This document shows positions 27,142 through 47,774 of a stretch of DNA of 64,000 nucleotides, piece after piece (within the stretch, counting starts at the first letter, position 1; each line of letters begins with the position of its first letter). The DNA lies in the NCBI RefSeq assembly GCF_025452195.1, contig NZ_CP104969.1, positions 80,001 to 144,000 of the forward strand. The letters are read 5' to 3'. Source of the DNA: Phyllobacterium zundukense. GTDB lineage: Bacteria; Pseudomonadota; Alphaproteobacteria; Rhizobiales; Rhizobiaceae. The position numbers and the translations under genes were made by a program. The notes under the pieces are model-generated. The model did not search any database and had not been told where the DNA came from. It saw nothing but the letters and a program-made list of their open reading frames with translations.

Positions 27142-27515
27142 CTATGATTCCGAAACGGCTTTTTTGCAGGGCGTTGGCGAGCACCCGGAATGCGAGGAGA
27201 TAGAGCCACCATGATATAGGACATCTATGCAGGATTCATGCTGCGGTGTTTTGCCACCCGGAATGGCGGCTGGCGCTGGCTCACAAGCCAAACAGCATTT
27301 CCGCGCGTCTTTTCTCGTCGAATCCTCTTTGCGCTCCAGTCGGCAGGATTGACATTCGAGAATTTCTTGGGATTATGTATACCACAGATTATGGGGCAGA
27401 TGGCGCGTGTCTGCCTGTCGGTCCAATCACCAGGCCGGAACAAGTGACAAAAACCAGATCCCTGAAGATCACACGGGGGCAGAACGATCCAAAAAGGGCG
27501 AGCAGGAGGAAAACA
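27142..27515. other. 374-base divergent promoter region
   Basis: The stretch between the SBF-like transporter and the PanE-like gene has no credible gene. It contains the panE promoter and a predicted oxalate-regulon operator at 27349-27384 and a ribosome site AGGAGGAAA at 27503-27511. The 130-base leader between promoter and start shows no obvious structured element. Confidence 0.5.
27349..27384 (+). promoter_or_regulatory. panE promoter with oxalate-regulon operator
   Basis: TTGACA at 27349-27354 followed at 16-17 bases by GATTAT/ATTATG forms a promoter. The 17-mer TGGGATTATGTATACCA at 27368-27384 fits the repeated operator TGGnAT-N5-ATnCCA and covers the -10 region, a repressor-like position. 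Confidence 0.7.
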
Positions 27516-28541
27516 ATGAAGATCTGCATTTACGGCGCCGGCGCGATCGGTGGTTACATGGCAGTGATGCTCAAGCGCGGCGGCGCTGACGTTTCCATCG
27601 TTGCCAGAGGTGCGCATCTCGACGCGATCCGGCAGAACGGTTTGAAGCTCCTGGTGGACGGTACGGAAATCATCGAGCGCATGCCGGCTACCAGCAAGGC
27701 AAGTGAACTCGGTGTCCAGGATTATGTGATCGTCACGCTGAAAGCCCATCAGGCGTGGCAGGTTGCCGAGGACATGACGCCGCTTCTGGGTAAGGACACT
27801 GCAGTGGTGACGGCCCAGAACGGACTTCCCTGGTGGTATTTTCATGGCCTCCATCCGAGCGTGGCCGATCTCAGGCTGCAGAGCGTCGACCCGGATAACC
27901 GCCAGTGGGATGCGATTGGACCTGAGCGCGTCATCGGCGCCACGGTCTATCCCGCAACGGAAATCATTGGTCCCGGCGTCATCAAGCACATTTACGGCAA
28001 TCAGTTTGGCCTCGGCGAACCGGATTGCAGCAACAGCGAACGGGTCAAGCGTTTGGCGGCTGTGATGGAGGCTGGCGGCTTGAAGACACGTTTCTATGAC
28101 GACATTCGCAATGACATCTGGGTCAAGCTCTGGGGCAATCTTTGCTTCAATCCGATTTCTGCGTTGACGGGCGCAACGCTCGACATCGTCGCCACCGACC
28201 CGGGTACGCGGACCCTCGCGCGAAATATGATGCTCGAGGCCCAGGCAATCGGCGAAAAGTTCGGCGCGACCTTCCGGGTCGATGTCGAGCGCCGCATCGA
28301 CGGCGCTGCGGGCGTTGGCGCGCACCGCACGTCCATGCTGCAGGATGTCGACAAGGGCCGCGCTATCGAACTCGACGCACTTTTGACATCCGTGCAAGAA
28401 ATGGGCCGGCTTTGCGACGTGGATACGCCCTTTATCGACAGCGTGCTTGCGCTTGCCCAGCAGATGGGGCGTGTGAGGGGACTCTATCCCACCTTCCCCG
28501 AAGTGGCTGCCGTGACGGCCAGACCTGCAATGGCATCCTGA
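27516..28541 (+). CDS. PanE/ApbA-family reductase, probable oxalyl-CoA reductase
   Basis: This Rossmann reductase (341 aa) is of the ketopantoate reductase family. The nucleotide-binding motif is YGAGAIGGYM at residues 6-15 and the catalytic Lys region is WVKLWGNLCFNPISALTG near residue 200. In Methylobacterium extorquens the paralogue PanE2 reduces oxalyl-CoA to glyoxylate and is the main oxalate assimilation enzyme. Here the gene carries the same operator as oxlT and the oxc-frc operon, and a transhydrogenase supplying NADPH follows, so that role is more likely than pantothenate synthesis. This is inference from context; no residue proves the substrate. The start has AGGAGGAAAACA upstream. 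Confidence 0.8.
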   Translation: MKICIYGAGAIGGYMAVMLKRGGADVSIVARGAHLDAIRQNGLKLLVDGTEIIERMPATSKASELGVQDYVIVTLKAHQAWQVAEDMTPLLGKDTAVVTAQNGLPWWYFHGLHPSVADLRLQSVDPDNRQWDAIGPERVIGATVYPATEIIGPGVIKHIYGNQFGLGEPDCSNSERVKRLAAVMEAGGLKTRFYDDIRNDIWVKLWGNLCFNPISALTGATLDIVATDPGTRTLARNMMLEAQAIGEKFGATFRVDVERRIDGAAGVGAHRTSMLQDVDKGRAIELDALLTSVQEMGRLCDVDTPFIDSVLALAQQMGRVRGLYPTFPEVAAVTARPAMAS

Positions 28542-28608
28542 CCTGTTCCAGCAGCCGTTTAACGGAATCAAGTTGCCCCATTAGAAACCCCATAAAAGGA
28601 GCAGCCTG

Positions 28609-29991
28609 ATGATGCGGGTCGCTATTCCGAAGGAAACCGCGCCGAACGAGACTCGCGTGGCTGCCACGCCGGAGACGGTCAAGAAGCTGACAGCGCTCGG
28701 GTTTGCGGTTGTTGTCGAGGCTGGCGCCGGGGTTGCCTCGCGCATACCGGACGGCGAGTTTGTCGCAGCGGGGGCGACGATCGGCAAGGCGGCTGATATC
28801 GCCAGGGCCGATGTGGTGCTGAAGGTGCGCCGGCCTTCCTCCGCCGAGCTCAAGGCTTATAAAAAGGGTGCGGTCGTCATCGCCATGCTCGACCCTTACG
28901 GCAATGATGCGGCGGTCAAGGCGCTGGCCGATGCGGGGGTGACGGCCTTCACCATGGAATTCATGCCGCGCATCACCAGGGCGCAGGTCATGGACGTCCT
29001 GTCGAGCCAGGCCAATCTTGCCGGCTATCAGGCAGTGATCGATGCGGCGGGTGAATATGACCGCGCGCTTCCGATGATGATGACGGCTGCGGGCACCGTG
29101 CCTGCGGCCAAAGTGTTCATCATGGGCGTCGGTGTTGCCGGGTTGCAGGCGATTGCCACGGCGCGGCGGCTTGGCGCGGTGGTGACGGCAACCGATGTGC
29201 GTCCGGCGGTCAAGGAACAGGTCGCCTCGCTCGGCGCCAAGTTCCTGGCGGTCGAGGACGAGGAATTCAAGGCAGCCGAGACGGCGGGTGGTTACGCCAA
29301 GGAAATGTCGAAGGAATATCAGGCCAAGCAGGCGGCCCTGGTTGCCGACCATATCGCCAAGCAGGATATCGTCATCACCACGGCGCTCATTCCGGGGCGT
29401 CCCGCACCAAGGCTGGTCACGCGCGCGATGTATGCGCGCATGCGTCCGGGCTCGGTCCTCATCGATCTGGCGGTGGAGCGCGGCGGCAATGTCGAAGGCG
29501 CGGTTGCCGGCAAGATTACCGAGGTCGACGGCGTCAAGATCGTCGGCCACCTGAATGTCGCCGGCCGCATTGCCGCGACCGCCTCGCAGCTTTACGCCAA
29601 GAACCTCCTCGCCTTCGTCGAGACCCTGGTCGACAAGGATGCAAAAGTCATCAAGATCGATTTCGACGACGAACTGGTCAAGGCCACCGTGCTGACCCAT
29701 GGCGGCAAGGTGGTGCATCCGAACTTCGCCAGTGCTGCAACTGCAGCGTCAGCACCTGCAGCCTCAGCGGCAAAGCCCGCCGCCGGCAAGAAGGCTGCTC
29801 CTGCCAAGCCAGCGGCAACCAAGCCAGTCAAAGCGCCTGTCGCAAAGGCAGCGGCGACGGCCAAAACCGCCCCCAGCAAGACTGCGACACCAAAAGCCAA
29901 AACAGCCGCAAAGACCGCTGCTGCCAAACCCGCTGCAGCCCCATCCCCTGCAGCAAAGACTGCCGCTAAAAGCACGGAAGGAGAGGCATGA
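28609..29991 (+). CDS. pntA: NAD(P) transhydrogenase alpha subunit part 1, with long basic tail
   Basis: This subunit (460 aa) contains the NAD(H)-binding domain I of proton-translocating transhydrogenase: AIPKETAPNETRVAATPETV at the start, GVGVAGLQAIATARRLGA near residue 170, and GRPAPRLVTRAMYARM. The usual catalytic part ends about residue 375. The last 85 residues are almost only Ala, Lys, Pro and Thr, a histone-H1-like low-complexity tail that replaces the hydrophobic region encoded separately by the next gene. The stop overlaps that gene by four bases (ATGA). The enzyme makes NADPH from NADH using proton motive force. Confidence 0.93.
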   Translation: MMRVAIPKETAPNETRVAATPETVKKLTALGFAVVVEAGAGVASRIPDGEFVAAGATIGKAADIARADVVLKVRRPSSAELKAYKKGAVVIAMLDPYGNDAAVKALADAGVTAFTMEFMPRITRAQVMDVLSSQANLAGYQAVIDAAGEYDRALPMMMTAAGTVPAAKVFIMGVGVAGLQAIATARRLGAVVTATDVRPAVKEQVASLGAKFLAVEDEEFKAAETAGGYAKEMSKEYQAKQAALVADHIAKQDIVITTALIPGRPAPRLVTRAMYARMRPGSVLIDLAVERGGNVEGAVAGKITEVDGVKIVGHLNVAGRIAATASQLYAKNLLAFVETLVDKDAKVIKIDFDDELVKATVLTHGGKVVHPNFASAATAASAPAASAAKPAAGKKAAPAKPAATKPVKAPVAKAAATAKTAPSKTATPKAKTAAKTAAAKPAAAPSPAAKTAAKSTEGEA

Positions 29992-30404
29992 TGGCTGCCG
30001 ATGCAACCCTCGACAAGGCGCTCGATGCCTTGAACCAGGCGGCCGAGATGGTGCGTCAGGCCGCCGGAGCCATGCCGGATGCGGCAGGCGCTGCGGCGCA
30101 TGCGGTCACCGGCGGTGCGGTCGATCCCTTCGTCTTCCGCCTGGCCATCTTCGTCCTCGCCATCTTCGTCGGCTATTATGTCGTCTGGTCGGTGACGCCG
30201 GCGCTGCATACGCCGCTGATGGCGGTGACCAATGCCATTTCCTCGGTCATCGTCGTCGGGGCGCTCTTGGCCGTTGGTCTCTCGGCCAGCGGCTTTGCCA
30301 CCGGCTTCGGCTTCATCGCGCTCGTTCTCGTCAGCGTCAATATCTTCGGCGGCTTCCTCGTCACCCACCGCATGCTCGCCATGTACAAGAAAAAAGAAAA
30401 GTGA
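29988..30404 (+). CDS. pntAB: NAD(P) transhydrogenase alpha subunit part 2
   Basis: This short membrane subunit (138 aa) has a soluble N-terminal Ala-rich stretch of about 45 residues and then three to four hydrophobic helices (VFRLAIFVLAIFVGYYVV and others). The closing pattern VNIFGGFLVTHRMLAMY is typical of the transhydrogenase proton channel. In alphaproteobacteria the alpha subunit is split in two, as here. It is coupled by overlap to the gene before and followed after 10 bases by pntB. Confidence 0.92.
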   Translation: MMAADATLDKALDALNQAAEMVRQAAGAMPDAAGAAAHAVTGGAVDPFVFRLAIFVLAIFVGYYVVWSVTPALHTPLMAVTNAISSVIVVGALLAVGLSASGFATGFGFIALVLVSVNIFGGFLVTHRMLAMYKKKEK

Positions 30405-30414
30405 GATTTGAACG

Positions 30415-31815
30415 ATGAGCGTTAATTTCGCAACTTTTCTGTATCTCGTTTCCGGCGTCCTGTTCATCCTGGCGCTGCGCGGCCTGTCGCATCCGACCAC
30501 CAGCCGCCAGGGCAATTTCTACGGCATGACCGGCATGGCCATCGCGATCGCCACGACGCTGGCTCTGGCCGAGCCGAGCCTCAAGGGGCTCGGGCTTATC
30601 GTTGTCGGCCTTGCCATCGGCGGCAGCGTCGGCGCCTATATCGCCAAGCGCATTGCCATGACGGCGATGCCGCAGCTCGTTGCCGCCTTCCACTCGCTCG
30701 TCGGCTTTGCCGCGGTGATGGTGGCCGCCGCTGCGGTCTATTCGCCGGATTCCTTCGGCATCGGCGAGGTCGGCTCGATCCATGGCCAGGCGCTCATCGA
30801 GATGTCGATTGGCGTTGCCATCGGCGCCATCACCTTCACCGGCTCGATCATCGCCTTTTTGAAGCTCGATGGGCGCATGTCGGGCAAGCCGATCATGCTG
30901 CCGGGCCGCCATCTCCTCAATGCGGGGCTTTTGATCGCCATCGTCGTTCTCGTCGTGGCGCTGGTCCTGACCGAGAGCCATCTCGTCTTCTGGCTCATCG
31001 TCATCCTGTCGCTGATCCTCGGCGGTCTGATCATCGTGCCGATCGGCGGCGCCGACATGCCGGTGGTCGTCTCGATGCTCAATTCCTATTCCGGCTGGGC
31101 GGCGGCGGCACTCGGCTTTACCCTCGGCAATCTGGCATTGATCATCACCGGGGCACTGGTCGGCTCCTCCGGCGCGATCCTCTCCTATATCATGTGCAAG
31201 GGCATGAACCGCTCGTTCATCTCGGTCATTTTAGGCGGCTTTGGCGGCGAGACGGCCGGGGCAGCGTCCGGCGAAGTCGAACAGCGTCCGGTCAAGCAGG
31301 GCTCGGCCGACGATGCCGCCTTCATCATGAAGAACGCTTCCAAGGTCATCATCGTGCCGGGCTATGGCATGGCGGTGGCGCAGGCCCAGCATGCCTTGCG
31401 CGAGATGGCCGACAAGCTGAAGGCCGAGGGCGTCGAGATCAAATACGCCATTCATCCGGTCGCCGGCCGCATGCCAGGCCACATGAACGTGCTGCTGGCC
31501 GAAGCCAACGTGCCCTACGACGAAGTGTTCGAACTTGAGGATATCAACTCGGAATTCGCCCAGGCCGATGTCGCCTTCGTCATCGGCGCCAACGACGTGA
31601 CCAACCCGGCCGCCAAGACCGATCCGAAATCGCCGATCTTCGGCATGCCGATCCTCGATGTCGACAAGGCCGGCACCGTGCTCTTCATCAAGCGCGGCAT
31701 GGGCTCCGGTTATGCCGGCGTCGAGAACGAACTGTTCTTCCGCGACAACACCATGATGCTCTTCGCCGACGCCAAGAAAATGGTCGAAAATATCGTCAAG
31801 GCACTCGATCACTGA
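30415..31815 (+). CDS. pntB: NAD(P) transhydrogenase beta subunit
   Basis: This subunit (466 aa) has a membrane domain with about nine helices (residues 1-265; GGADMPVVVSMLNSYSGWAA is the signature) and a C-terminal NADP(H)-binding domain III with IVPGYGMAVAQAQHAL, HPVAGRMPGHMNVLLAEA and GANDVTNPAAKTDPKSPI. All expected regions are present. Co-expression with the PanE-like reductase would provide NADPH for oxalyl-CoA reduction; pnt is also a general NADPH source, so the link is plausible, not proven. Confidence 0.95.
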   Translation: MSVNFATFLYLVSGVLFILALRGLSHPTTSRQGNFYGMTGMAIAIATTLALAEPSLKGLGLIVVGLAIGGSVGAYIAKRIAMTAMPQLVAAFHSLVGFAAVMVAAAAVYSPDSFGIGEVGSIHGQALIEMSIGVAIGAITFTGSIIAFLKLDGRMSGKPIMLPGRHLLNAGLLIAIVVLVVALVLTESHLVFWLIVILSLILGGLIIVPIGGADMPVVVSMLNSYSGWAAAALGFTLGNLALIITGALVGSSGAILSYIMCKGMNRSFISVILGGFGGETAGAASGEVEQRPVKQGSADDAAFIMKNASKVIIVPGYGMAVAQAQHALREMADKLKAEGVEIKYAIHPVAGRMPGHMNVLLAEANVPYDEVFELEDINSEFAQADVAFVIGANDVTNPAAKTDPKSPIFGMPILDVDKAGTVLFIKRGMGSGYAGVENELFFRDNTMMLFADAKKMVENIVKALDH

Positions 31816-31873
31816 CAATCAGCGGCGGGCAGAAGAAAAGATCCGCACTTTTCAAAAATGGAGGATAGACAAA

Positions 31874-32647
31874 ATGGCTCAATGGGTACGATTTGACGAT
31901 GAGGGCATGGAGGGCTTCGGTCTTCTGCAAGGCAAGGATATCGTCGTTTATCAAGGCAGCATGTTCGAACAGCCGATCGCCACCGACATGCGGCTTCCAC
32001 TTGCCTCGGTTCGCTTGCTGGCGCCTTGCGCGCCTTCCAAGATCATCGCGCTGTGGAACAATTTCCATCAGCTCGCCGCCAAACTCGATGTCGCGAAACC
32101 CGATGAGCCGCTCTATCTGTTGAAGGCCCTGTCGAGTGTCGCATCTCCAGAGGCTGTAGTCCGCCGCCCTCCTTCCTACACCGAACGCGTCGGCTATGAA
32201 GGCGAACTTGGCATCGTGATCGGCAAGCGCTGCAGCAATGCGTCGGAAGAGGAAGCCGCAGCCGCCATTTTCGGCTACACCTGTGTCAACGACCTGACAG
32301 CGAGCGACATCATCGCCCGCGACAAGACCTTCGCGCAATGGGCCCGCGCCAAGAGCTTCGACGGTTTCTGTCCATTCGGTCCGGTCATCGCCACCGATAT
32401 CGATCCGACCGGATGCAATGTCAGAACCGAGCTCAACGGCGCCCTGCGCCAGGACTATCCCTTGAGCGATATGATCTTTCCCCCGGCAATTCTTGTCAGC
32501 GCCCTATCGAAGGATATGACGCTTGAGCCCGGCGATCTGATCTGCTGCGGCACGTCGGTCGGCGTCGGCTCGATCAAGGATCCGACCAACACTGTCCGCG
32601 TCACCATCGAGGGCATCGGCACCTTGTCGACCACATTTGTTCAGTAG
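31874..32647 (+). CDS. Fumarylacetoacetate hydrolase-family protein
   Basis: This 257-aa protein has the FAH C-terminal domain. Metal ligands are expected in RVGYEGELGIVIGKRC; the family loop reads GYTCVNDLTASDIIARD, and the closing motif GDLICCGTSVGVGSI is clear. Members hydrolyse acylpyruvates or decarboxylate or tautomerise oxaloacetate. Next to C2/C4-acid genes an oxaloacetate- or ketoacid-directed activity is plausible, but unproven. It lies 58 bases after pntB, starts behind a GGAGGAT site, and ends at a strong hairpin shared with the convergent ligase genes. Confidence 0.85.
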   Translation: MAQWVRFDDEGMEGFGLLQGKDIVVYQGSMFEQPIATDMRLPLASVRLLAPCAPSKIIALWNNFHQLAAKLDVAKPDEPLYLLKALSSVASPEAVVRRPPSYTERVGYEGELGIVIGKRCSNASEEEAAAAIFGYTCVNDLTASDIIARDKTFAQWARAKSFDGFCPFGPVIATDIDPTGCNVRTELNGALRQDYPLSDMIFPPAILVSALSKDMTLEPGDLICCGTSVGVGSIKDPTNTVRVTIEGIGTLSTTFVQ

Positions 32648-32659
32648 GTTATAAAATGA

Positions 32660-32692
32660 GAGAATACCCGGAAGCCAAGGTTCCGGGTATTC
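32660..32692. terminator. Bidirectional hairpin terminator
   Basis: AGAATACCCGGAA (32660-32672) and TTCCGGGTATTCT (32680-32692) form a perfect 13-bp stem with a 7-base loop. It lies between the convergent FAH-family gene and the SucD-like gene. T-rich flanks are modest, so termination strength is uncertain, but symmetry and location suit both directions. Confidence 0.75.
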
Positions 32693-32758
32693 TTCTATCA
32701 AACCGGATTTGGATGTTTCAGCGCTCTATCCAACTCCGGCCAGACACGTCATATTCTT

Positions 32759-33640
32759 TCAGGCCGCCGCGGCCATCGCCTCGCGGATGGTTTCGCCAAC
32801 GAGGTGCGGGCTCTTGGCGATGATCACGCCGGCATCTTTCAACGCGTTGATCTTGTTCCCGGCGTCGCTGGCAGCACTTTGCGCAAAGGCACCGGCATGG
32901 CCCATGCGGCGTTCCGTCGGCGCATAACGGCCGACGACGAGCCCGACGACCGGAATGTCCGGTTTGATCCCGGCAAGAAACTCTGCCAGCTCCTGTTCTT
33001 CCGATCCGCCGATCTCGCCGATGGCGATCACACCGCGCGTATCCTGGTCGGCAAGGAAAAGCTCCATGCAATCGCGCATGCTCAAGCCGTGAATGGCGTC
33101 ACCGCCAATGCCGACTGTTGTCGACTGGCCCAATCCCGCCGCACTCACTTGAGCGATGACTTCGCTGGTCAGCGATGCCGAGCGCGACAGGATGCCGACG
33201 TGGCCCTTGCGCTCGCTGCCCGTCGCCATCACGCCGATCTTGCAGACCCCCGGCGATAGGATACCCTGCGAGTTCGGGCCGACAAGAACCGTCGAGCTTT
33301 GCTTGAGCGCCGCGCGCACGCGCAACATGTCCTGTACAGGCACCCGCTCCGTCAGAGCCACGATCAGCGGCATACCTGCCTCGATGGCCTCGATCATTGC
33401 TGCGGCGGCGTTTTCCGGCGGCACGAAAATCATGCTGGCATTGGCGCCAGTCTCTTTCATCGCTTCTGCAACCTGATCAAAGACCGGGAGGTTCAAATGG
33501 TAGGTTCCGCCCTTGCCGGGGGTGACGCCGCCGACGATCCGGGTTCCATACTCCATCATGGCCGCCGAATAATGCGTTCCGGCCCAACCGGTCATGCCCT
33601 GGCAGATCACACGGGTGTTCTGATCGACGAGAATGGTCAT
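32759..33640 (-). CDS. SucD-like CoA ligase alpha subunit (divergent copy)
   Basis: This 293-aa protein is homologous to succinyl-CoA/malate-CoA ligase alpha subunits. CoA-binding region residues 1-120 include CQGMTGWAGTHYSAAM, VGPNSQGILSPGVCKIGVM lies near 120, and the phosphohistidine motif RRMGHAGAF near residue 248 is intact. It overlaps the beta-subunit gene by four bases. Compared with the mtkB product in the same window it has many substitutions, and its promoter has the oxalate-regulon operator. A CoA ligase for oxalate or a related dicarboxylate is the working idea; succinate or malate cannot be excluded. Confidence 0.85.
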   Translation of the reverse strand: MTILVDQNTRVICQGMTGWAGTHYSAAMMEYGTRIVGGVTPGKGGTYHLNLPVFDQVAEAMKETGANASMIFVPPENAAAAMIEAIEAGMPLIVALTERVPVQDMLRVRAALKQSSTVLVGPNSQGILSPGVCKIGVMATGSERKGHVGILSRSASLTSEVIAQVSAAGLGQSTTVGIGGDAIHGLSMRDCMELFLADQDTRGVIAIGEIGGSEEQELAEFLAGIKPDIPVVGLVVGRYAPTERRMGHAGAFAQSAASDAGNKINALKDAGVIIAKSPHLVGETIREAMAAAA

Positions 33641-34812
33641 GATCTTTCTCCATGTGCGGCGGAAACGGCGCGGTTCACCGCCGTCCACATGTCGGGACAG
33701 TCGATCACCTTGCAACCGAAATTGGCGAAGCGAAACCGTGCATATTCGGCATTGTTGCCCGCCAGACGAACGATAACCGGACAGGTGCGGCCCGTCCGCC
33801 GCATCGCGATGCCGAGACCGTCGGCAATGGTGTCGCAGGGCTGCATTCCGCCGCCATGCACATTGACAAGAATCGAGCGCACAGCCGGATTGTTGAGAAG
33901 AAGCGTGAACCCATGCGCGACATCGAGGCTGGTGGCCGTCGTGCGGATATCCATGAAGTTTGCAGCGCTGCCATTGGCTGCACGCACCATATCGAGCGTT
34001 GCGAGGCCAAGTCCGGCCCCATTGACAGCCAGACCGATATTGCCGTCCATCCGCAGATAGTTGAGCCGGCGATTTTGCGCGACAAGCTCGATTTCATCGC
34101 CGTCATGCTCTTCGCGTAGCGCCACCAGCTCGGGATGCCTGAACAGCGCGTTGTCGTCGATGATCATCTTGACATCGACCGCAACGAAATTGCCCGCTTC
34201 TGTCACCACCAATGGATTGAGTTCGATGAGTGTTGCATCGAGTTCGACGAAGGCCAGGCGCAGCTGATCGACAAGCGAAGCAAAGGCGGAGTGAAGGCCG
34301 GAACCAAGGCCAAGACGCTGGGCCAGGCCAGTCACGACCGCCTTCTCCAGTGCATCTCCGGTACCGAGGGAAAGCCGTTCCAGACGGGTTTCGCCCGATT
34401 GAAGCCGCTGCTCGATATCCTCGCTGCCTTCAGCGCCGGCGAGGATGGCAATTTCAGCCCTCGCCGCATCAACGAGCAACGATAGATAGAGGCTGCGGAC
34501 AGGGCGAACGGCCGCTTCGATCAACACCCTGTTGACGCGGCAACCGGCTGGTCCTGTCTGTTCGGTTATGAGTGTGCGCCCAAGCATCGCGGCTGCAGCT
34601 GTTTCGACCTCGCCTGTAGACGAGACCAGACGGACGCCGCCTGCCAGGCCGCGGCCTCCCGCCAGAACCTGTGATTTCACGGCGATCCTGTCCACGCCCA
34701 AAGCCTTGGCTGCTTCGCGGGCCTCGCTGGGGGTCAGCGCCACCTGGCCTTCGGGGACATTGACACCTCTGGCGGATAACAGTGCTTTCGACTGAAACTC
34801 ATGAAGCTTCAT
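33637..34812 (-). CDS. SucC-like CoA ligase beta subunit (divergent copy)
   Basis: This ATP-grasp beta subunit (391 aa) begins MKLHEFQSKALLSARGVNVP and keeps KSQVLAGGRG and the metal-binding ELNPLVV. The C-terminal domain is altered: where SucC and MtkA have [17 protein letters not shown], this protein has FMDIRTTATSLDVAHGF, and [11 protein letters not shown] becomes NVHGGGMQPCDT. These loops line the carboxylate/phosphate pocket in the family, so a different acid substrate is likely. The start follows GGGAGGAGGCGGCT; 21 more codons upstream are open but unsupported. It is the first gene of a two-gene unit with a strong promoter. Confidence 0.85.
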   Translation of the reverse strand: MKLHEFQSKALLSARGVNVPEGQVALTPSEAREAAKALGVDRIAVKSQVLAGGRGLAGGVRLVSSTGEVETAAAAMLGRTLITEQTGPAGCRVNRVLIEAAVRPVRSLYLSLLVDAARAEIAILAGAEGSEDIEQRLQSGETRLERLSLGTGDALEKAVVTGLAQRLGLGSGLHSAFASLVDQLRLAFVELDATLIELNPLVVTEAGNFVAVDVKMIIDDNALFRHPELVALREEHDGDEIELVAQNRRLNYLRMDGNIGLAVNGAGLGLATLDMVRAANGSAANFMDIRTTATSLDVAHGFTLLLNNPAVRSILVNVHGGGMQPCDTIADGLGIAMRRTGRTCPVIVRLAGNNAEYARFRFANFGCKVIDCPDMWTAVNRAVSAAHGERS

Positions 34813-34891
34813 AGCCGCCTCCTCCCTGAAGCGATTAGGCTGATGTGCGACGGGGACTTGCCCCGCGAGTCGCACTTGTCGTCAAGCGCAT

Positions 34892-34928
34892 TGGAATACA
34901 TAATGCCAACAAAAACGCATGCTGTCAA
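34892..34928 (-). promoter_or_regulatory. sucCD-like promoter with oxalate-regulon operator
   Basis: On the minus strand TTGACA (34928-34923), a 17-base spacer and CATTAT (34905-34900) make a very good promoter. The operator TGGCATTATGTATTCCA (34908-34892, minus strand) covers the -10 box and fits TGGnAT-N5-ATnCCA. It stands 80 bases before the SucC-like start codon. Confidence 0.75.
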
Positions 34929-34984
34929 TCCGTAGCCGGGTTAAGATTGCTGCTAGAACAACATCAAATGCGTTGTTTGAAAAG

Positions 34985-35020
34985 AAAACGGCGGCACCGG
35001 GGGTTATGCCGCCGTTTTCT
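34985..35020 (-). terminator. Rho-independent terminator after frc
   Basis: GAAAACGGCGGCA (34985-34997) pairs with TGCCGCCGTTTTC (35008-35020), a 13-bp stem with a 10-base loop. Read on the minus strand, the second arm ends in TTTTCTTTTC. It begins 10 bases beyond the frc stop and ends the oxc-frc unit before the SucCD-like promoter. Confidence 0.85.
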
Positions 35021-35029
35021 CGATGCGGA

Positions 35030-38814: not shown

Positions 38815-38870
38815 ACATTTTGAATACATTCAGTATTTACAAAAGTTGTATAGCAACACAAGCTTGGCTC

Positions 38871-38899: not shown

Positions 38900-38954
38900 G
38901 TCCCGATCAGCGCATGGCATTTTAGCTACATAAAAGGCGTAGAAAGGGATGAAC

Positions 38955-40247
38955 ATGACTCAAGCGGTAAAAGAGGAGTTCCGCTCGCGGCAGGTCAGCG
39001 ACGGATTCAGATGGGTACAGTTGGCAATTGGCGTGATCTGTATGGTCATGATCGCCAACCTGCAATATGGCTGGACGTTCTTTGTTCCCGAAATTACCAA
39101 ACAATTCGGTTGGGGGCGTGCCGAAATTCAATGGGCTTTCACGCTCTTCGTCCTGTTCGAAACATGGCTCGTTCCCATCGAGGGCTGGTTCGTCGATAAA
39201 TACGGCCCGAAGATCGTCATCATTTTCGGCGGGGTGCTCTGCGCCATCGGGTGGGTGATCAATTCACAAGCCGAAACCCTGTTTGCATTCTACATCGGCC
39301 AGATTGTTGCCGGTATCGGAGCGGGCGCGGTCTACGGTACCTGCGTGGGCAATGCATTGAAATGGTTCCCCGATCGGCGCGGCCTTGCAGCGGGCATCAC
39401 GGCAGCCGGATTTGGCGCGGGGGCCGCGCTGACGGTCTGGCCCATCCAGGCCACGATCGCGAACTATGGCTTCCAGAGTGCTTTCCTGACCTTCGGCATC
39501 GGCCAAGGCGTTGTTATCGTTATCCTTGCGTTCTTCCTGCTGGCTCCGAAGCCAGGTCAGGTGCCGGAACCGACAAACAAGGGCCCGATCATCCAAAGTC
39601 GCCGGCAGTACTTGCCTTCTGAAGTGGTCAAGCACCCTATTTTCTGGCTCATGTATGCCATGTTCGTTGCGGTGGGTGCCGGCGGCCTCGTTGTAACGGC
39701 CAATCTTGCGCCGATGGCCAAGGATTTCGGTGTTGCGGATATTCCGATGTGGCTGGGCATACCGGCTCTGACACTGGCTGCTACCCTCGACCGTCTTCTC
39801 AATGGCCTGACGCGACCGTTCTGCGGCTGGGTGTCGGACAAGATAGGGCGCGAGAACACCATGTTCATCGCCTTCGGTATCGAGGCGATCGGTATCTACA
39901 TGCTCTATCTCTACGCGGGCAATCCGGTGATGTTCGTCATACTCAGCGGTTTGGTGTTCTTTGCCTGGGGCGAAATCTATTCTCTGTTCCCGTCAACCTG
40001 CACCGATACATTCGGCTCCAAATTTGCAGCCACCAATGCGGGACTGCTCTACACCGCCAAAGGTACAGCAGCGCTTCTCGTCCCATTTGGCACCGCGATG
40101 GCGGCAGATGGCAACTGGAACTCGGTGTTTATCATCGGCGTCGTCCTGAATGGCGCTGCAGCCCTTCTGGCTCTGTTCGTACTCAAGCCATGGCGTGCAG
40201 GCATTATTCGCAGAACGGAAGAAAACGTTCTGCAGCCTGCCCAATAA
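38955..40247 (+). CDS. oxlT: Oxalate/formate antiporter OxlT-like MFS transporter
   Basis: This major-facilitator protein (430 aa) has 12 predicted helices. Two charged residues that bind oxalate in Oxalobacter OxlT are conserved with the right spacing: Arg in NGLTRPFCGWVSD (residue 287) and Lys in LLYTAKGTAAL (residue 369), matching OxlT Arg272 and Lys355. It should import oxalate, possibly against formate. The start chosen is the second of two close ATGs, six bases after GAAAGGG; the first, at 38949, abuts that site. The gene is monocistronic by its own promoter and operator, and lies between the oxc-like and acyl-CoA synthetase genes. Confidence 0.92.
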   Translation: MTQAVKEEFRSRQVSDGFRWVQLAIGVICMVMIANLQYGWTFFVPEITKQFGWGRAEIQWAFTLFVLFETWLVPIEGWFVDKYGPKIVIIFGGVLCAIGWVINSQAETLFAFYIGQIVAGIGAGAVYGTCVGNALKWFPDRRGLAAGITAAGFGAGAALTVWPIQATIANYGFQSAFLTFGIGQGVVIVILAFFLLAPKPGQVPEPTNKGPIIQSRRQYLPSEVVKHPIFWLMYAMFVAVGAGGLVVTANLAPMAKDFGVADIPMWLGIPALTLAATLDRLLNGLTRPFCGWVSDKIGRENTMFIAFGIEAIGIYMLYLYAGNPVMFVILSGLVFFAWGEIYSLFPSTCTDTFGSKFAATNAGLLYTAKGTAALLVPFGTAMAADGNWNSVFIIGVVLNGAAALLALFVLKPWRAGIIRRTEENVLQPAQ

Positions 40248-40350
40248 TATCCCGACAGCATTCGCCTGGGCTGGATGATTCAGCCCAGGCATTCAGCTTC
40301 AGACACTCAATCAGCATCGAAGCAACCAGCTACCAGCCAGAGATCAGGAC

Positions 40351-40383
40351 TTGACAGTGATTTTTCTGGTATACAATATGCCA
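40351..40383 (+). promoter_or_regulatory. Promoter and operator of the acyl-CoA synthetase gene
   Basis: TTGACA (40351-40356) and CAATAT (40374-40379) are 17 bases apart. The operator TGGTATACAATATGCCA (40367-40383) covers the -10 box. The gene starts 104 bases downstream; mtkA, mtkB and ppc may share this transcript. Confidence 0.72.
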
Positions 40384-40486
40384 ATATGGGCGCCAAAGAC
40401 AACTTTACCAGTTCGCGCCGCTGGCAAACCAGGCCACATCAATGCCGCCGTCACCGGGAGTGCACGCGGCCATCACGGAGGAAATC

Positions 40487-42613
40487 ATGCTCGATAAAAC
40501 CGTTGTCCGTAACGTACTGGAAGCGGCGCGGGCCGAGGGCCGCCAGGCACTCACCGCACCCGAAGGCAAGCTTATTTGCGATGCCTATGGCATAGCAGTT
40601 CCGCAGGAGGGCGTTGCCGGCAGCGCCGGGGAAGCCGCCTCGCTTGCATCGTCCATGGGTTTTCCGGTGGTCATGAAGATCGTCTCTCCGGATATCCTGC
40701 ACAAGACCGAAGCAGGCGGCGTTATCGTCGGCGTCAAATCTGCCGAGGAAGCCAGGGCCAGTTTCGACAAGATCATCGCCAACGCCCAAGCCTACAAGGC
40801 CGATGCGGAAATCGTCGGCGTGCAGGTCCAGCAAATGCTGACCGGCGGCCTCGAGGTCATCATCGGCGCTGTAACCGACGACAGCTTCGGCAAGCTCGTT
40901 GCCTTTGGCCTTGGCGGCGTCCTCGTCGAAGTCCTGAAGGACATTACCTTCCGTCTCGCACCGGTGACGCACGACGAAGCCCTGTCGATGCTCGACAGCA
41001 TCCAGGCAGCGGAAATGTTGAAGGGCGTGCGCGGCGGCGAGGCGGTCAATCGTATCGCGCTTGCCGATATGATTGTGCAGGTCTCCAAGCTCGTCGACGA
41101 CTATCCGGAAATCTCCGAGCTCGATCTCAATCCGGTTTTCGCCACCAGGGAAGGCGCGATTGCCGCCGACGTGCGCATTGTCGTCGATTACAATCAGGCC
41201 AAGCCTCGCCATCGCCCGTCCCAGGAGGAAATCCTCAAATCCATGAACCGCATCATGCGGCCGAAGGCGGTCGCCGTGATCGGCGCTTCGGCAGAGGATG
41301 GCAAGATCGGCAATTCCGTGATGAAAAACCTCATCAACGGCGGCTACAAAGGACAGATATATCCGATACATCCGAAGGCCGAAGAGATCCTTGGCTACAA
41401 GACCTACAAAAGCGTCAAGGATGTTCCGGGCGATATCGATACGGCGGTCTTTGCCATTCCCGCCAAACTGGTTGCCGGCGCCCTTGCCGAATGCGGCGAG
41501 AAGAAAATTCCTGGCGCAGTCCTCATTCCCTCGGGCTTTGCTGAAGCCGGAGAACCGGAACTGCAGGACGAAATCGTCAAGATAGGCCGCAAATACAATA
41601 TCCGCCTGATGGGCCCCAACATTTACGGCTTCTACTACACGCCGGAAAATCTCTGCGCGACGTTCTGCACGGCTTACGACGTCAAGGGCTCGGCGGCATT
41701 GTCGTCACAGTCCGGCGGCATTGGCATGGCGATCATCGGCTTTTCGCGTTCGGCCAAGATGGGCGTGTCGGCGATTGTCGGTCTCGGCAACAAGTCGGAT
41801 ATCGATGAGGACGACCTGCTCACCTTCTTCGAGCAGGACGACAATACGCGCATCATCGCCCAGCATCTGGAGGATCTGAAAGACGGCCGTGCCTTTGCCG
41901 AGGCCGCAAAACGCGTCTCGCAAAAAAAACCGATCGTCGTCCTCAAGGCGGGACGCACCTCCGCCGGTGCCAAAGCGGCCTCCTCGCATACGGGCGCGCT
42001 TGCCGGTAACGACAAGATCTACGAGGACGTTTTCAAGCAGGTCGGCGTCATCCGCGCCCGCTCGCTGCGGCAGCTCCTCGAATTCGCCCGCGGCATTCCG
42101 GTCATGCCAACGCCGAAGGGCGAAAATGTCGTCATCATCACTGGCGCTGGCGGCTCGGGCGTACTTCTCTCCGACGCCTGCGTCGATAACGGCCTCAGTC
42201 TCATGGGAATGCCGGACGATCTGGATGCGGCCTTTCGCAAGTTCATTCCGCCCTTCGGTGCCGCGGGCAATCCCGTCGACATCACAGGCGGCGAACCACC
42301 CCTCACCTACAAGAACACGGTCAAACTCGGCCTCGAGGACGATCGCATCCACGCGCTGATCCTCGGTTACTGGCACACGATCGTCACCCCGCCGATGGTC
42401 TTTGCCAAGCTCATGGTCGAGGTGAAGGAAGAGATGGCGGCCAAGGGTATCGAGAAGCCGATGGTTGCGTCGCTTGCCGGCGATGTCGAGGTCGAAGAGG
42501 CCGCCGAATATCTCTACCAGCATGGCATCCCCGCCTATGCCTATTCGACCGAGCTACCAGTCGAGGTACTGGGAGCGAAGTACAAATGGGCCAGAGGCGC
42601 AGGTTTGCTCTAG
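40487..42613 (+). CDS. NDP-forming acyl-CoA synthetase, fused beta-alpha form
   Basis: This 708-aa single-chain ligase forms an acyl-CoA from acid, CoA and nucleotide triphosphate, releasing the diphosphate. Domain order is ATP-grasp first (about residues 10-235, [19 protein letters not shown]), then CoA-binding (from about 257, [18 protein letters not shown]), then the ligase part with the phosphohistidine motif [10 protein letters not shown] near residue 500. That beta-before-alpha order is the reverse of many archaeal and Pat-type enzymes. The start follows GGAGGAAATC. It carries the oxalate-regulon operator, so oxalate or formate may be the acid, though the family is usually called acetate-CoA ligase. 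Confidence 0.88.
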
Positions 42614-42702: not shown

Positions 42703-42750
42703 TCTGGTGCCCTCATAAAATTTATCACTCTCAAGGAGGACGTTTCTCCA

Positions 42751-43950
42751 ATGCACATTCATGAGTATCAGGCCAAGAGTGTTCTGAAGTCCTTTGGCGT
42801 GCCTGTCCCGGAAGGCTATCTGGCTGTGGACATCGACGAGGCCGGTGAAATGGCCGCAAGGCTTCCTGGTCCGGTCTTTGTTGTCAAATCGCAAATTCAT
42901 GCCGGCGGTCGCGGCAAAGGTTCGTTCAAGGAACTGGGCGAAGGTGCAAAGGGCGGCGTCCGCCTTGCCCGTTCCATTGCGGAAGTTCGCGAACATGCCG
43001 CCGAAATGCTCGGCAATACACTGGTGACGATCCAGACCGGCCCCTCAGGCAAGCAGGTCAACCGCCTCTATGTCGAGGACGGATCGCAGATCGAGAAAGA
43101 ATTCTACCTCTCGCTCCTGGTCGACCGCGCAACCAGCCGCGTTTCGTTCGTTGTCTCCACCGAGGGCGGCATGGACATCGAAACCATCGCGCACGATACA
43201 CCGGAAAAGATCCTCACGTTCTCGGTCGATCCCGCAACGGGCATCTTGCCCCATCATGGCCGCGCCGTTGCCAAGGCGCTGGAACTCGACGGCGATCTCG
43301 CCAAACAAGCGCATACACTCGTCGCAAAACTCTATACGGCGTTTACCACCAAAGACATGGAGATGCTCGAGATCAATCCGCTGATCGTCTCGAAGGACGG
43401 CCAGCTGAAATGTCTCGACGCCAAGGTCAGCTTCGATTCCAACGCGCTCGCCCGTCATCTCGACATTTTCGAAATGCGCGATGAGACCGAAGAGGACGCC
43501 AAGGAGATAGAAGCGTCGAAATACGACCTCTCCTACATCACGCTCGACGGCAGCATTGGCTGCATGGTCAACGGCGCCGGCCTTGCCATGGCGACAATGG
43601 ACATTATCAAGTTCTACGGCGCAGAACCGGCCAACTTTCTCGATGTCGGCGGTGGCGCCACCGCAGAGAAGGTCGCAGCGGCATTCAAGATCATAACTGC
43701 GGATCCGAATGTAAAAGGCATTCTCATCAACATCTTCGGCGGCATCATGCGCTGCGACGTGATTGCAGAAGGCGTGATCACCGCTGTCAAGGAAGTGGGG
43801 CTGACCGTCCCTCTCGTCGTTCGCCTCGAAGGCACCAATGTAAATGAGGGCAAGAAGATCATCGCGGCATCGGGGTTGAACGTCATCCCCGCTGACGATC
43901 TCGACGATGCCGCCCAGAAGATCGTCAACGCAGTCGGAGGCTTGAACTGA
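42751..43950 (+). CDS. mtkA: Malate-CoA ligase (malate thiokinase) beta subunit
   Basis: This ATP-grasp beta subunit (399 aa) forms malyl-CoA from malate, CoA and ATP with its partner. It has [43 protein letters not shown], and the standard pocket loops [12 protein letters not shown] and IFGGIMRCD. The RGKGSFKE stretch and the neighbours mtkB and ppc match serine-cycle loci, which favours malate over succinate. AAGGAGG lies 11 bases before ATG. The stop overlaps mtkB as TGATG. The usual malyl-CoA lyase gene is absent from this cluster. Confidence 0.88.
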
Positions 43951-44867
43951 TGTCGATACTGATCAACAAGAATACCCGTCTCCTCTGTCAGGGTTTCACC
44001 GGCAAGACCGGCACCTTCCACAGCGAACAGGCGATCAAATACGGCACCCGCATGGTCGGCGGTACCTCCCCCGGCAAAGGCGGAACGTCACATCTCGATC
44101 TGCCCGTCTTCGACACGGTAGCGGAAGCACGTGAAGCGACCGGAGCTGACGCCTCGGTTATTTACGTGCCGCCTTTCGGCGCGGCGGACGCTATCTGTGA
44201 GGCGATCCAGGCGGAAATTCCGCTGATCGTCTGCATCACGGAAGGTATCCCGGTTCTCGACATGCAGCGTGTCAAACGTGCATTGAGCGGTTCGAAATCC
44301 CGACTGATCGGCCCCAACTGTCCCGGCATCATGACTGTCGATGAATGCAAGATCGGGATCATGCCAGGCTCCATCTTCCGCAAAGGATCTGTCGGCATCG
44401 TGTCGCGCTCGGGTACGCTGACCTATGAGGCAGTATTCCAGACCTCGCAGCAGGGTCTTGGCCAGACCACCGCGGTCGGAATCGGTGGCGATCCCATCAA
44501 GGGCACCGAGTTCATCGATGTGCTGGAAATGTTCCTCGCCGATCCTGCGACGGAGTCGATCGTGATGATCGGCGAAATCGGCGGTTCGGCTGAAGAAGAA
44601 GCCGCACAATTCCTTGCCGATGAGGCAAGGCGCGGACGCTCGAAGCCAACGGTCGGGTTCATTGCCGGGCGGACAGCACCTCCCGGCCGGCGCATGGGCC
44701 ATGCTGGAGCCATCATATCCGGCGGCAAAGGTGGCGCAGAAGACAAAATCAGCGCCATGGAAGCAGCTGGCGTCCGGATCGCCTCCACACCGGCGCGTCT
44801 TGGCACCACACTGGTCGAACTTCTGAATGAGCGCTCGGTATCTCCACGCCTGTCAGCAACTGGTTGA
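43950..44867 (+). CDS. mtkB: Malate-CoA ligase (malate thiokinase) alpha subunit
   Basis: This 305-aa subunit has CoA-binding residues 1-125 ([20 protein letters not shown]) and the phosphohistidine in [16 protein letters not shown] near residue 250. [20 protein letters not shown] is as in MtkB and SucD. It overlaps mtkA by one base and ppc by one base, so the three are translated as a unit. With malyl-CoA lyase, encoded elsewhere if present, it would split malate to glyoxylate and acetyl-CoA, or run in reverse to use glyoxylate. Confidence 0.88.
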
Positions 44868-47710
44868 TGGCAGCCCCGGCACCGGATCAAACCGTCATGT
44901 CGCTTGAAAATCACTGCCGCGAAAGGCTTGCCGCCTTTCGCGCGCGGCTGACCGACGAACCGCGCTATAATCCTGTCGCGCAGCTCTCCTTCGAGCTGTC
45001 GCGTGATCTCGAGGCAGGCACGCTTAGCAGACACGATTTGGCTGGCCTCATCCATTCTCTCGGCAAGGCCAGCTTTCAGGCCCGCGCCCGTGCACTCGCC
45101 GGTTACGTTGGTCCGCTCGATATGGATGAGAATCGCAAGCGTCTGACGTCCGCCATCGAATCCCTGCTCGGCGATGACGGCACATTCGAGGAGGATCTTG
45201 CCGCCCTTCGTCGTTGCCAGCTTGGCTTGGTGTTCACAGCACATCCAACCTTTCTCCTGTCGCGCCGCCAGCGCAACATGCTGGCCCGGCTCGCCAATGG
45301 CGAAATCGTAGAAGACGATGAAACAGGTTTGGGTCCTGATCGCCCGATTACGCTGAATGATGAGCATGAAGCGGTGGTTATGGCGATCGATAGAGTCAGC
45401 GACGCGATCGCCGAGTTTTCGAGATTGTCGATTGAGATCCTGCGCCAGCGCCATGGAGATAGGTGGCGGGAGGCGCAGATTGGTTTTGTCGGTGTTGGTA
45501 CCTGGGTGGGCTACGATCTGGATGGACGCACCGACATAGCCTGGATCGACATGTTTCGCTTCAGGCTTGCTGAAAAATCGCGGCAGATCCGTCGCTATGA
45601 AGCTTCAATCACCCGGATACTCGCAAAGCCCGGATGCGGATCGGCGATCGGAAACAAGCTCGGACAGATGGCCCTGAAACTCGAGCGGCTCCACGCGTGG
45701 AGCGATCTTGTGCTTGAGGCTTTTTCGCAAATGCCGCTTGATCCGTCAGCCCTTGAGGCCGCTTCGGAGATATTGACGACAGATCATCCCGACCGGATCG
45801 TCAGCATCGATCCCTTGCTCTCCATCCTGGACGCGGCCGTTGCGGATACCCCCGACGAGATTGCCCTGGACCTGCTTATTCTGCGCAGCGAGATGGCAGC
45901 GCTCAGCTTTGGCGTGGGTGAAGTTCACCTGCGTATCAATGCGACACAGCTTCACAACGCCATCATGCAGTATCTGGACCTTGATTCCGGAGAACAGATC
46001 GGCAGCCGATCCATTCTCGAAATGCTTGGCGAACTCATCCGCGATGCCGATAAGTACCAGGTCAACTTCGCCTCCCTCGATATCGAGCAAAAAACTGCGC
46101 TACGTCAGTTCCTGCTTGCCGCCCAGATTCTCAAGCACGTCGATAGCGATTCCTCCATTCGCCTGTTGATTGCCGAATGCGAAAACCCGGCAACTGTTCT
46201 TGCCGCAATGTGCTTCGCCCGGCTGTTCGGCGTCGATCACAAGCTCGATATATCGCCGCTGTTCGAAACACCCACAGCGCTGGAGAACGCAGCCCGCTTC
46301 TTCGACGTGCTTTTTACCATTCCTGAATACCGGGACATCGTGCGTGCTCGCGGTCGCATAGCAATACAAACCGGCTTTTCCGATTCCGGTCGTTTCATGG
46401 GTCAAATTCCGGCGGCTCTCGCCATTGAACGCGTCCAGGGGCAACTGGCGCGTGCATGTATTCGTCACGAACTCACTGATGTCGAAGTCCTCATTTTCAA
46501 CACGCATGGCGAATCTGCAGGCCGCGGCGCCCACCAGCGCTCATTCGTGGACCGGGCCTTCTACGTGCTTAGCCCATGGATCCGCCACCAATACCGCGAT
46601 GCCGGCATTACTCTGAAACATGAGGTGAGTTTTCAAGGCGGCGACGGATATCTCTATTTCGAGACGCCGGAGCTGGCTCTTGCCACGTTGACGAGACTTG
46701 TCGAATGTGAGGTGCCGACACGTGGCGCGCCAGAAGATGACCTGCTCTACGCCAAGACGAGCTTTTCCTTCGACTTTTATCGGCATATTGCGAATTTTCA
46801 TGACCATCTTCTGAATGACCGGGCCTATCACAGAACGCTAGGGTCGTTTCCGCAAGGGCTTCTCAACGAGACCGGTTCGCGCAAATCGCGCCGGCAGTTC
46901 GATGTCGCCGGCGCCGAAGTCCATCAGGTCAGGAAAATCCGCGCGATCCCCCATAATGCCATCCTGCAGCAACTCGGCTACCCGCTGACTGTGGTCTCCG
47001 GTTTCGGAAGTGCCGTGCGCGGTGATGAGGATCGCTTCGTGGAAGTTTATAAGGGATCGGATCGCCTGCGCCGGCTTACATCTCACGTTTTTGCCACGAA
47101 ACAGAAGTCGAGCATCAAGGCGCTTGCCGCTTTCGCAACCGTTTACGACCCCGCATTCTGGTCGTCGCGACCCTATGCCGGCGCCGAGCCGCATCTCGCC
47201 GCACCTTGTCTTTCGATAACACAGCTCCTTGAAGGCGATGAAAGGGCGACGGCCATAAGCGCGCTAGCGGTCAAGCTGAGGATCGATGCCATCTGGCTTC
47301 ATCGCATCCTGGATGCGGTCGAACTACCCGCGGGCAAGCCACGGGAGTCAGAACATGAGCGCAGCGATATGCTGCAGGCCATACGCCTGGCACTGTTGCA
47401 GCACATCTTTCTCATGGCCGCGCGCGTTCCGCGATTTTCGACGCGCAACGATATTTCTCGCGACGACATCATGGAACTGATCTTCAGCCTGCGCATACCC
47501 GAAGCAGTCGAATTGCTCCGCGGAGCGTATCCCGGGGACCCCGTCGATATGAAGAAATATCACCTTAGCGAGCCATTCACCTATCCGGGAGAACGTCCCT
47601 CGAACTATGCCGATCTCAGCGCCCGGTTGATCGACCCGATTGCCGATACCTACACCGCCATTCTTGAAGCCGGCACAGCGGTGGCTCTTGATTTCGGCGC
47701 TCATGGCTAA
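44867..47710 (+). CDS. ppc: Phosphoenolpyruvate carboxylase, serine-cycle type
   Basis: This enzyme (947 aa) carboxylates PEP to oxaloacetate. Expected active-site regions are present: VFTAHPT with the catalytic His near residue 127, VGYDLDGRTDI, and GFSDSGRFMGQIPAALAIE near 505. The mobile loop that reads FHGRGGTVGRGG in ordinary enzymes is FNTHGESAGRGAH here (about residue 545), and the C-terminus is DFGAHG instead of the common NTG. These changes and coupling to mtkAB suggest a distinct methylotroph-like clade, possibly with altered allostery. The ATG overlaps the mtkB stop; a TTG one codon earlier is possible. Confidence 0.88.
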   Translation: MAAPAPDQTVMSLENHCRERLAAFRARLTDEPRYNPVAQLSFELSRDLEAGTLSRHDLAGLIHSLGKASFQARARALAGYVGPLDMDENRKRLTSAIESLLGDDGTFEEDLAALRRCQLGLVFTAHPTFLLSRRQRNMLARLANGEIVEDDETGLGPDRPITLNDEHEAVVMAIDRVSDAIAEFSRLSIEILRQRHGDRWREAQIGFVGVGTWVGYDLDGRTDIAWIDMFRFRLAEKSRQIRRYEASITRILAKPGCGSAIGNKLGQMALKLERLHAWSDLVLEAFSQMPLDPSALEAASEILTTDHPDRIVSIDPLLSILDAAVADTPDEIALDLLILRSEMAALSFGVGEVHLRINATQLHNAIMQYLDLDSGEQIGSRSILEMLGELIRDADKYQVNFASLDIEQKTALRQFLLAAQILKHVDSDSSIRLLIAECENPATVLAAMCFARLFGVDHKLDISPLFETPTALENAARFFDVLFTIPEYRDIVRARGRIAIQTGFSDSGRFMGQIPAALAIERVQGQLARACIRHELTDVEVLIFNTHGESAGRGAHQRSFVDRAFYVLSPWIRHQYRDAGITLKHEVSFQGGDGYLYFETPELALATLTRLVECEVPTRGAPEDDLLYAKTSFSFDFYRHIANFHDHLLNDRAYHRTLGSFPQGLLNETGSRKSRRQFDVAGAEVHQVRKIRAIPHNAILQQLGYPLTVVSGFGSAVRGDEDRFVEVYKGSDRLRRLTSHVFATKQKSSIKALAAFATVYDPAFWSSRPYAGAEPHLAAPCLSITQLLEGDERATAISALAVKLRIDAIWLHRILDAVELPAGKPRESEHERSDMLQAIRLALLQHIFLMAARVPRFSTRNDISRDDIMELIFSLRIPEAVELLRGAYPGDPVDMKKYHLSEPFTYPGERPSNYADLSARLIDPIADTYTAILEAGTAVALDFGAHG

Positions 47711-47757
47711 CGTAAATGGTTGCAAAAACTCGCAAAATGACTTCAATGAATTAAATA

Positions 47758-47774
47758 TGGTATTATACATTCCA
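47758..47774. promoter_or_regulatory. Oxalate-regulon operator upstream of the GntR gene
   Basis: TGGTATTATACATTCCA fits TGGnAT-N5-ATnCCA and lies 24 bases before the GntR start codon, where it would block initiation. This suggests autoregulation and identifies the GntR protein as the likely binder of all seven sites. Confidence 0.7.

Follow-up and report, generated by a model that had tools for sequence, protein, structure and literature searches.

Several regulators have been described that resemble in part the system considered here, and they are compared below as far as the accessible parts of the cited papers describe them. NanR, a GntR-type repressor of the sialic acid genes in E. coli, has a zinc site and acts through a few operators at catabolic promoters, and its half-site GGTATA resembles the TGGTAT found in the present study (PMC8012715). 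DgoR and CitO, which respond to galactonate and citrate, respectively, have an FCD domain with a metal (PMC7674646, PMC4746285). In CitO, removal of the metal abolishes citrate binding (PMC4746285). DgoR binds inverted repeats overlapping its promoter. Docking places galactonate at the metal of DgoR, and, in the accessible part of the paper, neither EDTA nor changes of the metal residues markedly altered the binding of DNA in the presence of galactonate; according to the same source, acetate may be a ligand of the FCD metal in TM0439 (PMC7674646). In Paracoccus denitrificans, the IclR-family BhcR and the GntR-family GlcR regulate the neighbouring C2 metabolism of glyoxylate and glycolate (PMC11323563). 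As for oxalate itself, the oxalyl-CoA reductase route involves a PanE-type reductase (PanE2 in M. extorquens, ApbA2 in C. necator) encoded near frc and oxc and required for normal growth on oxalate; a regulator of the route is not named in the accessible parts of the two papers, and the term "GntR" does not occur in the former (PMC7486775, PMC8411744). A search of titles and the beginnings of abstracts, with subscription journals mostly outside its scope, yielded nothing on the control of oxalate genes by a GntR protein or on an operator for them.

In the present study, we analysed a 64-kb stretch of Phyllobacterium DNA (hereafter, the window) and found that it contains a genuine oxalate operator and regulon, very probably run by a GntR/FCD protein encoded in the same cluster. 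The switch belongs to a well-known, fairly ordinary kind of genetic control, and it differs from each of the above systems. The NanR operator consists of direct repeats, (GGTATA)2-3, whereas the half-sites here are mainly inverted with a 5-bp gap, and the ligand system of NanR is sialic acid, not oxalate (PMC8012715). We rejected a NanR-type operator for the present sites, which are made of inverted TGGnAT arms and have only a partial direct-repeat character. The TGG-to-CCA spacing here is wider than in FadR-type operators, which counts against a GntR-type binder. DgoR and CitO have other ligands, and CitO is an activator. BhcR and GlcR have other targets, and BhcR belongs to another family, the likely boxes of which are different here.

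Gene families were assigned with NCBIfam and Pfam. The oxalate cluster is preceded by the genes for glyoxylate carboligase (gcl, 23370-25211) and a BhcR-like IclR regulator (25325-26152, just under the cut-off of that model). On the plus strand, a panE-like reductase gene (27507-28541), whose product is likely an oxalyl-CoA reductase by analogy with the described route (PMC7486775), is followed by the transhydrogenase genes pntAB (28609-31815, namely 28609-29991 and 30415-31815), perhaps in the same transcript. A gene for an FAA-hydrolase-family protein is listed between pntAB and the first sucCD-like pair (32759-34815, minus strand). Also on the minus strand are frc for formyl-CoA transferase (35030-36307; TIGR03253, above the cut-off) and, in the slot of oxc, a gene for a thiamine pyrophosphate (TPP) enzyme (36395-38149). 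The plus strand then carries a gene of 45 codons (38615-38752), the product of which has no assigned function, oxlT for the oxalate/formate antiporter (38949-40247; TIGR04259, above the cut-off), the gene for an ADP-forming acyl-CoA synthetase (acs, 40487-42613), perhaps an oxalate-CoA ligase, and downstream of it a second sucCD-like pair (42748-44867, namely 42748-43950 and 43950-44867). According to the original prediction, the regulon links genes that are seldom associated with oxalate use. This holds only in part, since a PanE-type reductase has been tied to oxalate growth: Cupriavidus necator without ApbA2 showed impaired, slower growth on oxalate (PMC7486775).

The operator was proposed to be a 17-bp motif, TGGnAT-N5-ATnCCA, with seven copies upstream of named genes of this cluster. 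We found seven exact matches in the window, at 27368, 34892, 38379, 38559 (previously given as 38560), 38879, 40367 and 47758, all of which are intergenic relative to the cluster genes and upstream of the genes named. Dinucleotide shuffles of the window gave a mean of 0.04 and a maximum of one match. A scan of the window for sites with exactly one mismatch added none, and up to two mismatches gave 30 matches versus 24.6 by chance; thus, the signal is carried by the exact sites alone. Many unrelated matches across the genome would have spoken against the proposal, but exact ones are few in the whole genome (6.41 Mb in 5 contigs): there are 10, of which seven are those of the oxalate cluster, and the other three (L008-L010) are inside mechanically listed open reading frames of 120, 185 and 198 amino acids and look like background. 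For seven sites in 20.4 kb against a background of three per genome, the Poisson probability is about 1e-18. The background for the motif was taken from scattered sites in GntR-negative genomes, because the reversed pattern has different dinucleotides and is unsuited as a control. The genome has 172 sites with up to one mismatch; for this reason, and because the window count with up to two mismatches is close to chance, mismatched sites were not taken to extend the regulon.

The first operator (27368-27384), upstream of the panE-like gene, overlaps the -10 box of TTGACA-16-GATTAT (27349-27376) and is identical in all six genus genomes kept in the footprint described below. The second (34892-34908), upstream of the first sucCD-like pair, overlaps the -10 box of TTGACA-17-CATTAT (34928-34900, minus strand); it is identical in all five genomes kept, with ungapped flanks only 43% identical. 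These two promoters, each matching at 10 of 12 positions, are the best promoter-like matches in a scan of 27250-40500, although the six matches found there in total are not above the number in shuffled sequences (4.6). The third operator (38379-38395) is about 230 bp upstream of the minus-strand unit of the TPP enzyme and frc, the fourth (38559-38575) is 39 bp before the 45-codon gene, and the fifth (38879-38895) is upstream of oxlT. The sixth (40367-40383), upstream of acs, is located 10 bp after a conserved TTGACA. The seventh (47758-47774), 23 bp before the GTG start codon of gntR, is identical in 8/8 genus genomes; the gntR promoter is outside the stretch scanned for promoters. Promoter overlap is firm only at panE and sucCD, as was proposed for both. 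For acs, where an overlap with the -10 box was also proposed, TTGACA is clear and present in all seven genus rows shown, but the -10 box (CAATAT) is weak and was not reported by the scan of 27250-40500. The same scan reported no promoter at oxlT, where the site had been proposed to fill the spacer.

We compared 20 genomes of the genus, including that of the window. An orthologue of GntR (E <= 1e-60) is present in eight, and the same eight have OxlT (E <= 1e-110). Exact sites at the oxalate genes number six or seven in each of these. In the 12 GntR-negative genomes, 49 exact sites were found, but these are scattered, with the closest pair 2.8 kb apart, and none of the 12 genomes has three exact sites within 20 kb. 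In four genomes (G002, G008, G010 and G018) the panE site is on a separate contig; as the contigs end close to the site, it was not counted as a distinct location and may reflect an assembly break. For a footprint, one row per genome and site was used, rows had to reach a flank alignment score of 5, and the genomes kept, including that of the window, numbered six for panE, five for sucCD, seven for oxc and eight for each of the other four sites. Since the rows were collected with the exact pattern, the ten arm bases agree by construction, and the informative positions are the centre and the two n positions. The five centre bases were 91-100% identical to those of the window, compared with 43-82% for the 20-bp flanks, the latter lowered by the ungapped comparison.

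To the order level, 297 genomes were searched with OxlT, so that loci were chosen independently of GntR. OxlT was found at E <= 1e-120 in 37 genomes, 36 of which also have a GntR homologue (E <= 1e-55); the sole exception (G238) is 74% complete. Conversely, a GntR homologue at this threshold but no OxlT at the cut-off was found in 38 of the 297, most of these homologues being weak (44-53% identity among the matches listed). From the 74 OxlT matches listed, which include that of the window genome, the 29 best loci besides it, belonging to seven other families, were examined. An exact site is present within 400 bp upstream of oxlT in 24 of them (26 with one mismatch allowed) and in none of 29 coding controls; by family, the counts are 1/1, 8/9, 3/3, 2/2, 3/3, 6/8 and 1/3, and five loci have no exact site within this distance. 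In 23 of the 29 the site is 66-83 bp before the inferred start codon. Outside this set, loci found by the oxlT region include Methylobacterium bullatum, which has three exact sites in 31 kb, one of them flanked by the genes for a GntR homologue (49%) and an oxc-type enzyme and another upstream of oxlT. A plasmid record of Azospirillum sp. B510 has one exact site, upstream of oxlT. Cupriavidus campinensis and Caballeronia sp. SBC2 each have one oxlT preceded by the variant of the Burkholderiales (see below); for the latter (L170), no match to GntR was found in the 31 kb fetched.

Loci were also selected with GntR, and the best 80 of 470 orthologue loci were fetched (84 with four plasmid loci). 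Exact sites are located upstream of gntR, acs, panE, sucCD, oxlT or oxc-type genes in loci of Mesorhizobium, Chelativorans, Paracoccus, Labrys, Alsobacter and Hyphomicrobium. No exact site was found in L026, L028, L029, L032, L033 and L034, but some of these loci are short or have no oxalate genes. Genes that have been relocated retain the site, as for sucCD adjoining gntR in L022 and panE in L023 and L024; in L013, the sucCD-like pair follows frc and lacks an exact site, which is what an inner operon gene would show. The presence or absence of the site thus follows the position in the operon, which strengthens the case for a regulon. In the Burkholderiales and Rhodospirillales loci of this set there is no exact 17-mer, and many have a site with one mismatch. 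A de novo motif search to which the pattern was not supplied returned consensus sequences of the tGGnATncATaATnCCA type: TGGnATncATaATnCCA from 37 upstream regions of Phyllobacteriaceae and neighbours (25 with scores of at least 20 bits), tGGcATaCcanAtaCcA from 26 regions of other Hyphomicrobiales and nGTATgTGATATATCA from 130 regions of Burkholderiales. The motif for Rhodospirillales, TatcTgGCnnncCa, was derived from 19 regions and is weak; several of its rows probably do not represent true sites. In Burkholderiales, 62 of the 130 upstream regions contain the pattern TATRYNNTATRYCA, which was absent from 130 coding stretches and from all 20 rounds of shuffling, although this is not an independent test because the pattern was learnt from the same regions. 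By gene, it precedes sucC in 9/9, panE in 14/22, oxc-type genes in 7/12, frc in 20/37, gntR in 9/24, oxlT in 3/22 and acs in 0/4 regions, and three of 58 loci (L078, L094 and L095) have no copy. Together, the clustering in the window, the co-occurrence in the genus and the conservation upstream of orthologues in the genus and the order, with related motifs further out, uphold the original prediction that the seven sites define an oxalate regulon; the computations show a genuine and conserved operator that is linked both to the oxalate genes and to the presence of GntR.

The putative regulator gene, gntR (47798-48514, plus strand), is intact in frame to about 48310, beyond which the C-terminal third is read in a different frame, up to about 48534. 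In all seven other genus genomes carrying the gene, it matches over the whole length with no inner stop codons; the frame change in the window genome may be a real disruption or an assembly error. With GntR disrupted in this way, the oxalate circuit may be unregulated in the window genome. The protein has an N-terminal winged helix (PF00392; E = 8.8e-13 for the orthologue in L017 and 2.2e-13 for the N-terminal piece in the window) and a C-terminal FCD domain (PF07729), of which positions 1-122 of 125 are covered by the L017 orthologue and 1-64 by the in-frame piece of the window. Among 30 aligned orthologues, which do not include the window's own copy, the residues N151, H155, H199 and H221 are invariant; from this Asn and three His, a metal site is predicted. 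Their spacing (4/44/22) is the same as that of N144, H148, H192 and H214 in Ps5454 (PMC7674646), and the metal residues differ in part from those of DgoR (Asp146/His150/His195) and CitO (Asn147/His191/His213) (PMC7674646, PMC4746285). An operator precedes gntR itself in all eight genus genomes, in 11 of 29 gntR-selected loci from the same order sample (exact site) and in nine of 24 regions of the Burkholderiales.

We consider it highly likely that the 17-bp motif is the operator of this cluster-encoded GntR/FCD protein, which would act as a dimer to repress the oxalate genes and its own gene until released by an oxalate-type ligand. The parts of this explanation are not equally firm. Co-occurrence alone does not separate a regulator from a target, as GntR and its presumed targets co-occur; taken together with the site that precedes gntR in the genus and the failure of the IclR alternative discussed below, however, it strongly suggests that the GntR/FCD protein binds the operator. 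Repression is probable, because the operator covers the -10 box of the two best promoter-like matches (panE and sucCD). Oxalate is a natural candidate for the ligand, since acetate may ligate the metal in TM0439 and CitO needs its metal for citrate, and by this analogy an oxalate-type ligand may be proposed with some reserve; the DgoR result given above speaks against it. In this mechanism, the oxalate genes and gntR itself would be kept off by a GntR dimer that occupies the inverted TGGnAT half-sites at their core promoters and blocks RNA polymerase. The ligand, either oxalate or an immediate metabolic neighbour (oxalyl-CoA, glyoxylate or formate), would bind to the metal site of the FCD domain and release GntR. 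Release would turn on uptake (oxlT), CoA activation (frc and the synthetase) and the TPP enzyme, as well as reduction to glyoxylate by the panE product with NADPH supplied by PntAB. The target set makes sense as a coherent one, with uptake, CoA activation, NADPH-supplied reduction to glyoxylate and onward use.

An alternative possibility, which we regard as unlikely, is that the same GntR is an activator or a dual regulator, the ligand-bound form of which recruits RNA polymerase. The FCD regulator CitO is in fact a ligand-dependent activator (PMC4746285), and the site in the oxc gap is about 230 bp from the start codon. However, at panE and sucCD the position of the site over the -10 box favours blocking, and at gntR the site ends just before the start codon. 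Binding of the 17-bp sites by the IclR-family BhcR (25325-26152) is much less probable still. Its gene adjoins the cluster in the window and is inside the cluster in L013, Skermanella has a relative (38%) nearby, and oxalate strengthens and glyoxylate weakens the in vitro binding of Paracoccus BhcR (PMC11323563). BhcR is, however, present in 16 of the 20 genus genomes, including eight of the 12 GntR-negative ones, where the orthologues are 78-81% identical and all lack the site cluster; furthermore, the window has no exact 17-bp site before bhcR, and the gap between gcl and bhcR (25212-25324) has different boxes, TGGAAATTATT and TATGGAAATAATG. BhcR was rejected as the binder because the site clusters do not follow its presence and these boxes differ. 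The two boxes in the gap are of a TGGAAAT type, which we take to resemble the IclR box, and are possible BhcR sites unlike the 17-bp operator. Finally, that the motif is merely a repeated sequence carried between genes, such as a mobile palindrome, has practically no chance of being right: identical 17-mers do recur upstream of orthologous genes, but neither the centre nor the flanks are the same among the seven copies in the window, the distance to oxlT is kept in other families as given above, and genus genomes without the oxalate cluster have no such site clusters.

For the use of oxalate, a carbon source that soil bacteria obtain from plants and fungi, control by the GntR/FCD protein, our preferred explanation, provides a concrete, testable candidate regulator and operator in two proteobacterial classes. 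The motif can be used to find additional members of the oxalate pathway, and the natural operator and protein could become an oxalate sensor.

The spacing and arms of the sites were originally described as constant and the centre as variable. The copies do differ at the centre, but the centre is not free and tends to resemble RCCA. In the better orientation, the match of the centre to RCCA is 2.43 for the seven sites of the window versus 1.61 after shuffling (P = 0.003), 2.35 versus 1.61 for 26 distinct sites of the Phyllobacteriaceae group, 3.00 versus 1.79 for 11 sites of other Hyphomicrobiales, and 2.63 versus 1.79 for 19 distinct sites of the oxlT-selected set; these figures are inflated by the kinship of the sites, and the RCCA template was picked after the sites had been viewed. 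Some sites in Labrys, Methylobacterium and Azospirillum read TGGCATRCCA-n-ATRCCA, that is, a 10-bp palindrome with a third half-site, and on the other strand the Burkholderiales motif, TGATATATCA-c-ATAC, has the same plan. Three GGTATA half-sites are also found in the operator of NanR, itself of the GntR type (PMC8012715). We tentatively raise the possibility, which is doubtful at present, that the operator consists of three half-sites: an outer inverted pair (17 bp) and an internal RCCA, which together with one arm makes up a 10-bp palindrome (TGGYATRCCA-n-ATRCCA). The conserved pair would then differ by lineage, being the outer pair in Phyllobacteriaceae and the 10-bp core with one outer arm in Rhodospirillales and Burkholderiales. 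If so, the regulator would use two binding registers, or its dimers would cooperate, so that the oxalate switch would be graded, and the drift of an operator within one conserved regulon would be visible. The third exact site of M. bullatum (L169:19581-19597) is about 840 bp upstream of a second frc.

The product of 36395-38149 had been labelled oxc-like, but it is not a canonical Oxc and is rather similar to 2-hydroxyacyl-CoA lyases, which are its nearest solved structures. It shows 24-29% identity to the Oxc-type neighbours of many other loci and 27% to Skermanella Oxc, and a search of the genome with the latter gave no better match. TIGR03254, presumably the curated family of oxalyl-CoA decarboxylase (Oxc), is absent from the best 25 of its 50 NCBIfam matches. 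Close relatives (79-83%) occupy this slot, next to frc, in Labrys, Cupriavidus basilensis and some Paraburkholderia. Thus, the regulon includes a 2-hydroxyacyl-CoA-lyase-like enzyme at the place where the decarboxylase was expected. The 45-amino-acid protein has no Pfam family and no match in the further loci searched; it is kept in all eight cluster-bearing genus genomes, with the operator just upstream. The closest relatives of the cluster among the named records fetched are in Phyllobacterium, namely P. bourgognense 31-25a (L019; OxlT 100% and synthetase 99% identical) and Candidatus P. onerii (L018), and in Phyllobacterium sp. T1293 most of the cluster genes are on a plasmid in an altered order. 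Between the second sucCD-like pair and gntR, 44864-47710 encodes a protein of 948 amino acids, the sole family match of which is a weak one to PEP carboxylase over 200 residues; it has no match in the T1293 cluster and one in Candidatus P. onerii L018.
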